Below are positions 58,281 through 63,586 of a DNA stretch of 64,000 nucleotides, piece after piece. The notes under the pieces are model-generated. The model saw only the letters and a program-made list of their open reading frames with translations, was not told where the DNA came from and made no database searches. The DNA is taken from assembly GCA_021561035.1 (NCBI GenBank), contig CP067346.1:961001-1025000 (forward strand). Reading direction: 5' to 3'. Numbering within the stretch: position 1 is the stretch's first letter; each line of letters begins with the position of its first letter. A program made the position numbers and the translations under genes. The stretch is from Clostridioides sp. ES-S-0054-01 (GTDB taxonomy: Bacteria; Bacillota; Clostridia; Peptostreptococcales; Peptostreptococcaceae).

Positions 58281-58370
58281 ATAAAAATATTTAAAATCTT
58301 AACGTAAATTTATTTTTGTAAATTAATGTTAAAGTTAAAAAATGAACTATAAGTGTATCAACAACAAAGA

Positions 58371-58427
58371 CTATATATACATTGCTGCATATATGAATGT
58401 AAAGCTGTGTGTATATAGCTTTTTTTG
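58371..58427 (+). terminator. Probable terminator after cwp16
   Basis: CTATATATAC (58371-58380) and GTGTATATAG (about 58409-58418) pair with a mismatch, then CTTTTTTTG. The long loop lowers confidence. Confidence 0.55.
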
Positions 58428-58521
58428 TAATTAAATGCAATAATTTGATTGTACTTTGTAAAATACACATTATGATATAATTAGATAATATACACTTAAT
58501 TTAATTGAGGAAGGTGATTAT

Positions 58522-60435
58522 GTGGAATACTTATTTGAAAAAAGTAGTTTAAAAGAATATAGAAATGAATCTTTAGATAAATATAGAGAATTATTAGATA
58601 AAACTGAGAATAATTCAAGAAATATTCTTTTATTAGTACCAAACAATAATACAAAGATAAGGTATGAAAGGTCTTTAAAATTAGATTATAGTGAAGAATT
58701 AAAGATAACAACATATATAGGTTTTGTGAAAAAGGAATTATTAAAATATTGGCCACTTATAATAGAAAAGTGTGATGAAATAAATAAAAAAACTGTATCT
58801 CCAACTTTTATATCAAATAGTCTAAGTGAATATTTAATAGTGCAAAAAGTTAAGGAAAAAAGGGTACAAGAAGGCTATTTTGAAGATATTACAGGAACAA
58901 ATAAATCAATAGCAAATAGTATAATGACAAATATAAATAAATCTGCATTTAATTTAGTTGACTTCGATTTTATTGGAGAAAAAATATATTCATCAAAGAA
59001 AAATAAAAATAGTATATATAGATTTTCATACACTCAAATGGATGAAATTGTATCATATTATATAAACTCATTACTATCAAATTCACTTTTAGATAATGCA
59101 CTAAGTGTATATATGTACAATCAGTATTTACTTAATGATGATTTTTATATAAAGAATTTATTTAAAGAAGTTAGGTATATAATAGTGGATAGTCTTGAAA
59201 ATTCAAGTAATGTAGAAGTTGATTTTATTACAAAAGCATTAAATAATGTACTAGAAAGTTATATGTATATTGATTATAGCAAAGATTATTCTGCATTTAA
59301 TAATGTAGATATGGACTATATAAAGGAAAAGATAATATCAAAACTTAAAACTGAAGAAGAAGATATTAATAAGAAGAATATTGGAATAGAAGATTTATAC
59401 TTATTACCTGCAACTATAGAATTAAATCAATCAAGCCAATTATACAATGAAATGTTAGATTTAATAAGTAAAAAAATCATATCTCTCATAGAAGATGGTA
59501 CATCTCCAAGAGATATAGCGATTATATCTCCTATAAACAATACTATATTGGAGCATCAAATTAGAGATTCTTTGATAGAAAAAAATATAGATGTTTTTAA
59601 TACTAAGAAAGATAAAAAAGCTGTAGATTATCCATATGGAAATGCATTAGTAGTGGCTACATGTATATTCTATGGGTATTTAGATTTTATAAAAGATGAT
59701 GAGTATTTAAGCTTTTTAGAAACTCTTTTAGATATAAATAGGATAAAAGCATTTAAGATTTTCAATGAAACAAGACATTTAAGTATTGATAATATGGGTG
59801 AACATAGTCAGTATCGTGATATTTTACAGTATATTGAAGAAAAAAAGAAGAGTGACATAAAAATACATGAATTTTTAATTCAGTTTTATATAGATAAGAT
59901 GCTAAGTTTAAAAGAAGGTAAAAAGAATGTTGGGTTATGTAAAAAGATAATAGCTGAAAGTGAATCTTTTAGTGAAAGTATAAGTTTACTTGGTATGAGA
60001 AAAGAAAAGATATTTATAGAAGCTTTGAAGACTACGATAAACGATTATTACTCTGTCGTTGATATAGAAGAGTTAAAATCCAAAGACAAAGTAGTAATAA
60101 CCACTCCTTATTCATATATATCATCAAATATAGATAGAAGTATACAAATATGGGTGGATATAGGAAGTAATGCTTGGAATATGAAAATAGAAAAGGATAT
60201 AAGCAATTTAATTGTACTTAGAAAATCTTTTGAGGAAAAAAAGATTTATACAAATGAAATGGAAGAATACTATAAGAAATATTATCTATACAATACAGTG
60301 TATAATTTGCTATTAAGTGCAAAGAAAATCTATGCGTATAAAAGTGAGTATACGATTAATGGCTATATCCAAGAAAGTATGTTATATAGTATACTTTTAA
60401 AAATCTCACATAAAGGAGATAAAAATTATGATTAA
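58522..60435 (+). CDS. AddB-like protein with lost P-loop (helicase-nuclease operon)
   Basis: A 637-residue protein I do not recognise by name. Its N-terminus lines up with that of the AddB encoded at the window end: AddB has a P-loop (GRSGSGKST), a linker helix and SIILLVPEQYTFEAE; here the P-loop place holds EKSSLKEYRNESLDKY, then RNILLLVPNNNTKIRYE and KITTYIGFVKK. The C-terminal part (YSYISSNIDRSIQIWVDIGS, then LLLSAKKIYAYKSEYTING) resembles helicase motifs V-VI in degenerate form. It probably is a scaffold/recognition subunit comparable to RecC or the inactive half of AddB. GTG start at 58522 behind GAGGAAGGTGA; the nearby ATG is out of frame. It overlaps the next gene by 8 bases. Confidence 0.65.
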   Translation: MEYLFEKSSLKEYRNESLDKYRELLDKTENNSRNILLLVPNNNTKIRYERSLKLDYSEELKITTYIGFVKKELLKYWPLIIEKCDEINKKTVSPTFISNSLSEYLIVQKVKEKRVQEGYFEDITGTNKSIANSIMTNINKSAFNLVDFDFIGEKIYSSKKNKNSIYRFSYTQMDEIVSYYINSLLSNSLLDNALSVYMYNQYLLNDDFYIKNLFKEVRYIIVDSLENSSNVEVDFITKALNNVLESYMYIDYSKDYSAFNNVDMDYIKEKIISKLKTEEEDINKKNIGIEDLYLLPATIELNQSSQLYNEMLDLISKKIISLIEDGTSPRDIAIISPINNTILEHQIRDSLIEKNIDVFNTKKDKKAVDYPYGNALVVATCIFYGYLDFIKDDEYLSFLETLLDINRIKAFKIFNETRHLSIDNMGEHSQYRDILQYIEEKKKSDIKIHEFLIQFYIDKMLSLKEGKKNVGLCKKIIAESESFSESISLLGMRKEKIFIEALKTTINDYYSVVDIEELKSKDKVVITTPYSYISSNIDRSIQIWVDIGSNAWNMKIEKDISNLIVLRKSFEEKKIYTNEMEEYYKKYYLYNTVYNLLLSAKKIYAYKSEYTINGYIQESMLYSILLKISHKGDKNYD

Positions 60436-62665
60436 TATAAATTATAGAGAAGACCAGATACCAATCATAAATTATGATAATGGTACTATGGCAGTACCAG
60501 CAGTGCCAGGCGCTGGAAAAACATTTATAATAACAAATTTAGTAGCTAAATTATTACTTGAACAGAAACATAAGGGCGGTAAAATATTAGTTCTTACATA
60601 TATGAATAGTGCTGTAAACAATTTTAAAGGTAGAATAAGAAAGATTCTTGAAGAGAATAAAATAGATGACACTAGTTCATATGAAGTAATGACTATACAC
60701 AGTTTGGCTGTAAAAATAATAAAGGAAAAACCAGAAGTTGTAATGTTAAGTGAGGATTTTAATATAGCTGATGATTTACAAAAAAATATTATATTAAATG
60801 AATGTATAAGTAGATTTAGATTTGAAGGTGGAGAAAGAGCTTTTAGATGGTTTTTAAAGGAACAAAAAGATGAGCGTTGGAAAGAAATAACTCTCGAAGC
60901 TTGGGAAAGAGGTTTTTTTGAATTTGCAGGAAATGCAATAAGTGAGCTTAAGTATAAGGGAATTTCTCCAGATAAACTTGAAGAAATATTGGCAAGAGGA
61001 CACAAAGGAATGCTTAAAATTATTCTCCCAATATATAAATTATATGATAGAAAGTTAAAGCAAAATGGATTATTAGACTATGATGACATATTAATTTTAG
61101 CAGAAAAAACTTTAAGCTTAGATGAAGGGCTTAGAAAGAAGTTTCAAACCAGATACAAATACATCTTTGAAGATGAATGTCAGGATTCAAATGAAATTCA
61201 AGGTAATATAATAAAAATTATATCTAGTGAAAATAAAAATTTAGTTAGAGTTGGAGATATAAATCAAAGTATAACAGGAACATTTTCATCATCAGACCCT
61301 AGATTTTTTAAAGAGTTTATAAATAATGCAGATTTCTGTTATAGGATGGATATGTCAAATCGAAGTTCAAAAGATATACTTGATTTAGCAAATATCCTTG
61401 TGGAATATGTTACAAAGGAATTTAGACAGGAAGAATGCAGACATGCCCTTGAAGATATGCAAATAAAAACTGTACCAAATGGAATGGGATATAAAGAAAA
61501 TCCTAATCCAGAGCATTACAACATAAACGTAAAGTGGTATGAGAGTTGGAAAAATGAAATAGAGCAAACTGCTAAATATGTTAAAGGTATAAAAAACAAA
61601 TACCCAGATAAAAGTATAGGTATATTAGTTCCATTTAATGAGCAAGTTACACAAGTTGCTAAAGAACTTAGGGAGTATAATCTAGCCTTTGAAGAATTAG
61701 GGCCAAATTCTTTGAGTAAGAGGAAGGTTATAAACAATATAGCATTTATTATTGATTTTATGTTACATTGTGATGATATAGAAAAGTTAATAATTGTACT
61801 TGAGAAGGTTTTTATAAATACTGATAATGAAGAAGAGTTAAAGAATTTTTTAGAAAAATTAAGAAACTATTCTACAGAAGAAATTATCTACAATTTTGAA
61901 TTTAGTAAGTTAGATAATGATTTAATAGAAGGAAATGAAGAAAGTGATATATATTTAAGCTTCAAAAGAGGAATAGATATTATAAAATATATATTAGAAT
62001 ATCCAATAATAAGGTTAGACCTTTTAGTTTTGTTTATTGGAAAAAAACTTAATTTAGAAAAAGAAGATAAGGCTGTACTTGATTATATATCTTTTTATAT
62101 AAAGTATCTAGTATCAGAAAATATAAATATGGATTTAGAAGATGTATATAATTTATTGTTTGATGTAAAAAATAAGGTATTCAATCACATAATAGATGTA
62201 GTATATGAGATAAATGGATATGAGCCAGAGCCTGGGAGTATAACACTATGTAATTACCATAAATCAAAGGGGATGGAGTGGGATTGCGTATTTTTATTAG
62301 GTCTTATTGAATATAATTTCCCTGACAATATCAATCAAAAATTTCAGAGTGATAAATGGTATCTAAAAGAAAAATATAAAAATCCTATGGCAATTATTAA
62401 ATCAGAAATTGAAGCTATATTAAAAGGAAGTATTTCAACTGATTATGCTTATAAAACAAAGATTGATTCTATAAATGAAAAGATTAGACTTTTATATGTA
62501 GGAATCACTAGAGCAAAGGAGATGTTAATACTTTCAGGAAGTGCTTATAGAGATGAAAATGATATAGGAAACAAGAGAAAAGAGCAAAAACCATGTATAT
62601 ATTTAGGCAGATTGAACCGTCATATTACTGAAAAGAGGTTAAATATATATAAAGAATTTAATTAA
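60428..62665 (+). CDS. UvrD/PcrA-type ATP-dependent DNA helicase
   Basis: A 745-residue SF1A helicase with all motifs in order: Q motif YREDQIPII, Walker A PAVPGAGKT (about 29), motif Ia LTYMNSAVNNF, Walker B FEDECQDSN (about 248), motif III VGDINQSITGTF, motif IV MSNRSSKDI, motif V NYHKSKGMEWDCVFLLGL (about 607) and motif VI LLYVGITRAKEML (about 690). There is no C-terminal nuclease domain, unlike AddA (about 1200 residues); the nuclease appears to be supplied by the next gene. It overlaps the upstream AddB-like gene by 8 bases with AAAGGAG inside that gene, which indicates coupled synthesis. Confidence 0.92.
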   Translation: MININYREDQIPIINYDNGTMAVPAVPGAGKTFIITNLVAKLLLEQKHKGGKILVLTYMNSAVNNFKGRIRKILEENKIDDTSSYEVMTIHSLAVKIIKEKPEVVMLSEDFNIADDLQKNIILNECISRFRFEGGERAFRWFLKEQKDERWKEITLEAWERGFFEFAGNAISELKYKGISPDKLEEILARGHKGMLKIILPIYKLYDRKLKQNGLLDYDDILILAEKTLSLDEGLRKKFQTRYKYIFEDECQDSNEIQGNIIKIISSENKNLVRVGDINQSITGTFSSSDPRFFKEFINNADFCYRMDMSNRSSKDILDLANILVEYVTKEFRQEECRHALEDMQIKTVPNGMGYKENPNPEHYNINVKWYESWKNEIEQTAKYVKGIKNKYPDKSIGILVPFNEQVTQVAKELREYNLAFEELGPNSLSKRKVINNIAFIIDFMLHCDDIEKLIIVLEKVFINTDNEEELKNFLEKLRNYSTEEIIYNFEFSKLDNDLIEGNEESDIYLSFKRGIDIIKYILEYPIIRLDLLVLFIGKKLNLEKEDKAVLDYISFYIKYLVSENINMDLEDVYNLLFDVKNKVFNHIIDVVYEINGYEPEPGSITLCNYHKSKGMEWDCVFLLGLIEYNFPDNINQKFQSDKWYLKEKYKNPMAIIKSEIEAILKGSISTDYAYKTKIDSINEKIRLLYVGITRAKEMLILSGSAYRDENDIGNKRKEQKPCIYLGRLNRHITEKRLNIYKEFN

Positions 62666-62755
62666 TGCGATGTTTAATATATTGTTGAAAATAGGATAGA
62701 ACAGTATATGCAGTAAATAGTTATTAAAAATAAAGTTAAGAGAGAAGTGATATGA

Positions 62756-63586
62756 GTGAATGATAGATTAAAATATTTTTCTTACAGTCAAAATTCAATC
62801 AACACATATAAATCATGTCCATTGAAATTTAAATATAAATATATTGATAGAATAAATTGGAAAAGTGATGATACTGATAATAGAGAATATTACGAAAGTT
62901 TAAAAACTGGAAGAGATTTTCATTTAATTTGTGAAAGATATTTTAGCAATATACCTCTTGGAATCTATTTTAATGAGGGTGATAAAAAGGGTAAAAAATT
63001 TTTAAAGTGGATTGAAAATATAAAAAAAATTGTTCCTATTGAAGAAGAAAAAATATATCTACCAGAATATGAAGTAAGGATGACTTTAAATGGAGATACA
63101 ATACAAGCAAAGTATGATTTAGTTGTAATTGGAAAAAAAAGTATAGAGATATGGGATTGGAAAACTGAGTCTAAAAAGATTGACTATAAAAATGTAGAAA
63201 ATAGAATACAAACAATTGTTTATATGTTTTTAGCAAAAGAAGTAATACCGAAAGTTTTAAAAATAGACGTAAATGTTAAAGATATAAATATGAGATATTA
63301 TCAGCCTGAATTTGATGATTTACCAATTACCATTTTATATAATGCACAAAAACATGAAGCAAATAAAAGTAAAATTCAAAACTATATAAGCATGATAAAG
63401 AATACTAATTATGAGGAACATACATACGAAGACAATCTATACAATGATATAGAAAAGGTATATAATAAAGAAGAACGTATGTGCTATAGAAATAAAAAGC
63501 ATTGCGAGTATTGTGAATTTAATAAGTTATGTAATGGTAAAGAAATAGATTATAGTATTTTGGAGGCGGAAATTTATGGGACTTAG
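62756..63586 (+). CDS. Stand-alone PD-(D/E)XK nuclease with Fe-S cysteines (AddB/Cas4-like)
   Basis: A 276-residue nuclease of the RecB/AddB C-terminal type. Active-site residues are visible: H in GRDFHLICERYF (about residue 57), D in AKYDLVVIG (about 120), D and K in EIWDWKTES (about 133) and QTIVY (motif QxxxY, about 149). The cysteine set for an iron-sulfur cluster is present: C in KSCPLKFKYKY (residue 21) and C-x2-C-x5-C in HCEYCEFNKLCNG near the end, the same spacing as in AddB. Cas4 is an alternative fold relative, but no CRISPR genes are near. GTG start at 62756. Its last 11 bases overlap addB. Confidence 0.87.
   Translation: MNDRLKYFSYSQNSINTYKSCPLKFKYKYIDRINWKSDDTDNREYYESLKTGRDFHLICERYFSNIPLGIYFNEGDKKGKKFLKWIENIKKIVPIEEEKIYLPEYEVRMTLNGDTIQAKYDLVVIGKKSIEIWDWKTESKKIDYKNVENRIQTIVYMFLAKEVIPKVLKIDVNVKDINMRYYQPEFDDLPITILYNAQKHEANKSKIQNYISMIKNTNYEEHTYEDNLYNDIEKVYNKEERMCYRNKKHCEYCEFNKLCNGKEIDYSILEAEIYGT

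Follow-up and report, generated by a model that had tools for sequence, protein, structure and literature searches.

Three adjacent genes directly upstream of addB in Clostridioides sp. ES-S-0054-01 form a conserved module that encodes a predicted inactive helicase, a helicase motor, and a free nuclease. We consider it probable that the three products (P0001, P0002, and P0003) act together as a single helicase-nuclease built from separate chains, which would process double-strand DNA ends for recombination as an alternative to AddAB and RecBCD. The analyzed stretch (here, the window) covers 64,000 nucleotides of a 3.93-Mb genome and holds the following features.

58522..60435, + strand, P0001, scaffold subunit, 637 aa, GTG start
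58525..58590, + strand, approximate site of the lost P-loop at the P0001 N terminus, aligned to the AddB P-loop (profile alignment)
60428..62665, + strand, P0002, predicted motor subunit, 745 aa, ATG start
60503..60523, + strand, Walker A of P0002, VPGAGKT, residues 26 to 32
62756..63586, + strand, P0003, putative free PD-(D/E)XK nuclease, 276 aa, GTG start
62816..62818, + strand, first Fe-S-type cysteine of P0003, C21
63155..63163, + strand, catalytic D134-W-K136 of P0003
63503..63532, + strand, Fe-S-type cysteines C250, C253, and C259 of P0003
63576..64000, + strand, start of addB, which runs beyond the window end and is followed by addA, sbcD, and sbcC

The first-pass annotation of this DNA had described three codirectional genes leading into addB through an 8-base overlap, a 90-base gap, and an 11-base overlap, and the open reading frames (ORFs) reproduce these junctions to the base. 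The ORFs 3′ of P0003 are AddB and AddA (TIGR02773 and TIGR02785, both above cutoff); the genes after addA are presumably sbcD and sbcC, named from sequence and position. PF12705 matched three sites in the window's own genome, namely, AddB, AddA, and P0003. For the LexA-box consensus, no match within one mismatch was found in 58281 to 58521 (a scan run without an SOS control), and 52 matches were observed across the window versus 67 expected. Promoter-like sites were fewer than in shuffled sequence, and the single terminator-like site was at chance level.

The order and strand of the scaffold, helicase, and nuclease genes were identical in 67/67 usable loci (L036 to L062, L093 to L101, L103 to L106, L120 to L143, L146, L148, and L149), and their dN/dS values were 0.07 to 0.20, so the three genes form a real conserved module beyond chance. 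The earlier annotation would have dropped its reading had the three genes failed to co-occur across related genomes; they keep company in every usable locus. Compared with two same-genus genomes, dN/dS was 0.13 to 0.14 for the scaffold, 0.07 to 0.08 for the helicase, and 0.17 to 0.20 for the nuclease (AddB, 0.07 to 0.09; AddA, 0.08 to 0.10), and the module genes are under purifying selection. Scaffold and helicase genes lie within 100 bases of each other or overlap in 64/67 loci, and helicase and nuclease genes do so in 63/67 (starts were assigned mechanically, which exaggerates some of the overlaps). Loci and genomes are mutually related, and the counts are not independent. Left out of the 67 were L102 (short contig), L107 (helicase in three frames, contig end), L108 (lone UvrD-like gene), L109 (Ilyobacter plasmid), L144 and L145 (scaffold over two frames, order kept), L147 (contig starts within the helicase), and L195 (Salinibacter, found later). 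The helicase gene broken into three frames (L107:1-2231, draft genome G247) is either a pseudogene or an assembly error. In G344, the scaffold and helicase genes are separated by 1.4 kb of inserted DNA that has small ORFs in both orientations (L096:10833-12265).

P0001 is predicted, from profile alignment and a modeled fold, to be an AddB-like, catalytically inactive SF1A helicase core that lacks a nuclease domain. On its own, the P0001 sequence had no Pfam match, and it contains no P-loop. A profile of 67 P0001 sequences aligned to the AddB profile (96.8%; E value, 2.9e-10; 569 columns; reversed control, 0.4%) over columns 15 to 674 of 1,174; P0001 thus aligns to the helicase-like half of AddB and stops where that region stops. 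A shallow, family-only profile of 28 sequences gave an hhalign probability of 1.5% against AddB and, in a PDB profile search, an E value of 0.35 to UvrD. The AddB label is not exclusive, because the 67-locus profile also matched the module's own helicase at 98.5%. An AlphaFold model of P0001 (pLDDT, 85.7; pTM, 0.84) gave full-length fold matches to Rep/PcrA/UvrD, AdnAB, RecB, AddA, and AddB, some at high rmsd. The best matches were Rep/PcrA, generic SF1A helicases matched at least as well as AddB did, and RecC was not among the 50 fold matches listed. An AddB-like protein lacking a P-loop was what the first-pass annotation had proposed, to be given up if the predicted structure proved unrelated to AddB or RecC; alignment, fold, and the missing P-loop all agree with that description, and the modeled fold is related to that of AddB. 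The P-loop was found in 0/28 addBA-linked scaffolds, the window's included, versus 39/40 unlinked copies (37 by pattern and 2 more upstream of the mechanical start), and the sole unlinked scaffold without it, in L139, has R for K. Since every addBA-linked copy belongs to one family, the loss may have been a single event.

P0002 is predicted to be an intact SF1A helicase of the UvrD/PcrA type. The UvrD N and C domains scored above cutoff (PF00580, 162 bits; PF13361, 85 bits), Pfam yielded no PD-(D/E)XK nuclease match, in line with the complete but nuclease-free SF1A helicase described earlier, and motif I and II patterns were present in 67/67 relatives. Among 37 helicases placed in a tree, the 14 module motors formed one branch (100/100) apart from 10 AddA, 4 PcrA-like, and 9 divergent AddA-like proteins, with long branches limiting any deeper reading. 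In the curated TIGR02773/TIGR02785 test, P0002 scored 108.6 bits versus a cutoff of 707.65, and P0001 matched neither model. None of the three proteins passed RecD models, and the similarity of P0002 to RecD/RecD2 was weak (13 to 17 bits). Because the motor branch is separate from AddA, we refrain from describing the module as a split AddAB; the earlier proposal of a split paralogue also fits poorly with P0001, which matches generic SF1A helicases as well as AddB or better.

P0003 is a putative RecB-type nuclease on its own chain and carries four cysteines of the Fe-S type. PF12705 scored 82.5 bits, above cutoff, and residues G52, H56, E104, D121, D134, W135, K136, Q152, and Y156 were invariant in 68/68 alignment rows. 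All four cysteines (C21, C250, C253, and C259) occurred in 60/68 rows, and their presence in P0003 upholds the earlier call of a free PD-(D/E)XK nuclease with an Fe-S pattern. A single genus (L059, L103 to L106, L148, and L149) accounts for six rows without the cysteines and one row with one of them; one further row is interrupted by a contig end. That genus retains the nuclease active-site residues and has a rapidly evolving scaffold, frequently a short one. PADLOC Cas4-type matches to P0003 were weak (E values, 2e-5 to 0.009).

Downstream of the module, addB was found in 27/67 loci, all from the window's family. The remaining 40 loci do not adjoin addBA; 28 of them have a codirectional recJ downstream, with 38 extending far enough to judge. 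One gene or the other followed in 55/67. Spacing between module and recJ was −127 to +46 bases in 27 loci and 675 bases in L130, and both recJ products scanned contained DHH, DHHA1, and RecJ_OB domains. Within the stretches covered, recJ was absent from the 27 addBA-linked loci and from 10/38 testable unlinked loci; L051, L053 to L055, L060, L061, L097, L100, L124, and L143 showed neither gene, addB or recJ. The commoner arrangement is thus module plus recJ outside the window's family and module plus addBA in most of that family. As recJ is a common housekeeping gene, adjacency alone proves no joint action. A housekeeping helicase-nuclease that serves stalled forks, R-loops, or 5′ flaps with RecJ, and has no part in double-strand-end resection, is a rather unlikely alternative. 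It would suit the resemblance of P0002 to PcrA/Rep in family scans, the Rep/PcrA fold matches of P0001, and the coexistence of module and AddAB in most of the window's family. However, a dead helicase, a motor, and a RecB-type nuclease are the parts list of end-resection enzymes, the downstream gene in those 55 loci is addB or recJ, and 13 genomes carry the module without an AddA/RecB-type match (see below), all of which speaks against this alternative.

A module gene was present in 67/71 genomes of the window's family (57 through P0001 relatives, 4 more by profile, and, of the 10 left, 6 through the module helicase); the four genomes without it (G019, G034, G035, and G036) all have AddB. At the class level, 18 relatives among 391 genomes were read as real, one of them a short fragment, and the remaining matches listed were short stretches, mostly of 500- to 1,100-aa frames. 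In the phylum draw, the module was present in 28/398 genomes, the window's own included. Its range spans the window's family, other Bacillota, and Salinibacter (Rhodothermota), at least two phyla. Plasmid pSR56 of Salinibacter ruber M8 carries all three module genes in unchanged order, with recJ next (E values at the locus, 5.3e-118, 1.2e-175, and 1.7e-49). On an Ilyobacter polytropus plasmid (L109:8914-10887), a scaffold gene with a P-loop was found without the helicase and nuclease nearby, the single case against linkage.

The patchy distribution across the phylum and the plasmid-borne module copy would be expected of an anti-phage defense system that degrades foreign linear DNA, as would the PADLOC models that scored best on P0002, which were GajB, and the related UvrD-Cas4-like fusions placed in defense loci by section 8 of PMC5704561. 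We nevertheless regard defense as quite unlikely. The same section judges the context of an unfused Clostridiales pair not indicative of defense, the module is nearly universal in its family, and PADLOC gave no match to GajA (ATPase-TOPRIM) for P0001 or P0003. Within the family, pairwise distances of the three module proteins are closely correlated with the AddB and AddA distances (r of 0.96 to 0.98 over 26 linked loci), as vertical inheritance predicts. No match to P0001 or P0003 was found by tblastn in 50,697 phage records, from which remote copies could escape, and none to P0001 in a pattern scan of viral_contigs that reaches close relatives only; among plasmids, tblastn of P0001 found Ilyobacter alone. 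These phage and plasmid negatives are weak, because the same kind of search, with P0001 and P0003, failed to pick up the divergent copy in Salinibacter, which was recovered via P0002.

In 13 module-bearing genomes of ≥90% completeness, no frame of >1,000 aa gave an AddA/RecB-type match, with two weak exceptions, AddA-profile matches in 1,604- to 1,614-aa frames of G344 and G394 (Acetivibrio alkalicellulosi; G182 is A. mesophilus). For 10 of the 13 (G001, G002, G059 to G064, G344, and G394), AddA matches were listed down to an E value of about 4e-5, and no AddB-sized AddB match was found; the other three (G457, G503, and G727) had no AddA match at an E value of ≤1e-11 and no AddB match at ≤1e-20. 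The AddA profile detects RecB-type proteins, as it also matched E. coli, Corynebacterium, and other controls. Proteins weakly matching the module helicase profile are encoded in G344 and G394 at L178:573-5399 (1,608 aa) and L181:1512-6317 (1,601 aa).

The phylum comparison used 398 genomes from three draws of equal size, the same genomes by their handles. Classical AddB (E value, ≤1e-20) was found in 3/27 module-bearing versus 247/370 other genomes (Fisher P value, 1e-8), and AddA-type proteins (E value, ≤1e-31) were found in 11/27 versus 308/370 (P value, 3e-6) at equal scoring depth, or in 12/27 when more candidates were scored; these P values ignore phylogeny, the 27 genomes span 17 families, and divergent AddAB-like genes occur below both thresholds. 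TIGR02773 at an E value of ≤1e-20 was thus absent from 24/27. AddA-like genes, mostly in AddAB-like pairs, were found at ten loci (L170 to L177, L179, and L180) in seven of the 27 module-bearing genomes plus G156 and G215, and AddA-profile frames of 946 to 1,130 aa were found in G497, G626, G794, G674, G804, G784, G532, and G559; the match in G819 was the module's own frame. For this reason, the claim of a module without AddAB is narrowed to the 13 genomes, leaving out G541, G572, G819, and G257 (clean-looking, <90% complete) and G791 (86% complete). Strict mutual exclusion of module and AddAB was rejected, AddA-like genes being found in module-bearing genomes, and in the window's family the two mostly occur together. 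AddAB, or a divergent pair resembling it, accompanies the module in many genomes, so the two need not share a job. The Bacillota loci L170 to L172, L174 to L177, L179, and L180 hold divergent AddAB-like pairs, or likely pairs, that fall below the curated AddB/AddA cutoffs or are missed at strict thresholds.

Accessory subunits of AddAB, such as an extra nuclease and a Chi-response regulator, were the other role suggested in the first-pass annotation and are very unlikely as a general one: the module does run into addB in 27 loci, and the scaffold P-loop is missing from exactly these copies and that of the window (0/28 versus 39/40), but that correlation concerns one clade and possibly one event, 40/67 loci are not beside addBA, and the 13 near-complete genomes have the module without AddA or AddB matches of the right size.

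Our best reading remains an alternative multisubunit end-resection machine acting with RecJ or beside AddAB, for which we infer the complex and its activity, polarity, division of labor, and physiological role. The initial observation that AddAB-type parts occur together holds, as a dead helicase, a motor, and an Fe-S-type nuclease in one conserved unit. P0002 would translocate 3′ to 5′ on one strand and, judging by its intact SF1A motifs, unwind the duplex; P0001, by analogy with AddB and RecC, would be the inactive-helicase partner that holds, threads, or reads a strand; and P0003, given its invariant catalytic residues, would cut the unwound strand. RecJ is a resection exonuclease and, where encoded 3′ of the module, would degrade the 5′ strand, leaving a 3′ tail for RecA. 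Counted against the end-resection reading are the loss of the Fe-S cysteines in one genus, the Ilyobacter scaffold on its own, and the loci without recJ. Only tentatively do we suggest that the module is a further class of double-strand-end resection machine besides RecBCD, AddAB, and AdnAB, with three chains and often RecJ as a fourth component, and the sole such machine in some bacteria, e.g., A. alkalicellulosi.

Conserved, present in genomes that lack an AddA/RecB match, and often adjacent to recJ, the module is a concrete candidate for starting recombination without RecBCD or AddAB, a question already posed in a section of PMC1193525 headed "Recombination without Presynaptic Recombination Proteins?" According to PMC6344619, C. 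difficile 630 delta-erm deleted for addAB shows UV and metronidazole sensitivity yet still induces SOS, from which the authors propose another exonuclease, with RecJ as one candidate. The module is a candidate for that SOS-sustaining activity, if the strain carries it. It is also a natural experiment in which motor, scaffold, and nuclease are split.

The earlier annotation knew of no described version of such a machine; for the three- or four-gene module, its scaffold, its recJ link, and its distribution, we likewise found no description in open-license PMC papers, but a pair is in print, an unfused UvrD plus Cas4-like operon in Clostridiales with a possible DNA repair role (Hudaiberdiev et al., 2017, PMC5704561). 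That pair is probably the helicase-nuclease pair of the module, which is likewise UvrD-like with an unfused PF12705 nuclease, in Clostridiales and in a nondefense context; section 8 of that paper makes no mention of the dead-helicase gene, the addBA or recJ neighbors, or presence without AddAB. Gabija shares with the module a UvrD-type helicase, GajB. AdnA and AdnB both give full-length matches to the P0001 fold. Each of the two AdnAB chains combines a motor and a nuclease, whereas the module is spread over three chains with the nuclease on its own. RecBCD is alike in having three subunits, a dead-helicase partner (RecC), an SF1A motor, and a nuclease; the module, however, lacks a RecD-type SF1B second motor, and its nuclease is unfused to the motor. 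AddAB, which adjoins the module here, shares the SF1A motor, the dead helicase partner, and the RecB-type Fe-S nuclease, and by profile alignment P0001 matches the inactive SF1 helicase-like N-terminal region of AddB. AddB, in contrast to P0001, carries its Fe-S nuclease at the C terminus of the same chain, and the AddA motor is fused to a RecB-type nuclease; the module motor has none, lies on another branch than AddA, and falls short of the curated AddA/AddB cutoffs, and the module's nuclease is a gene of its own.
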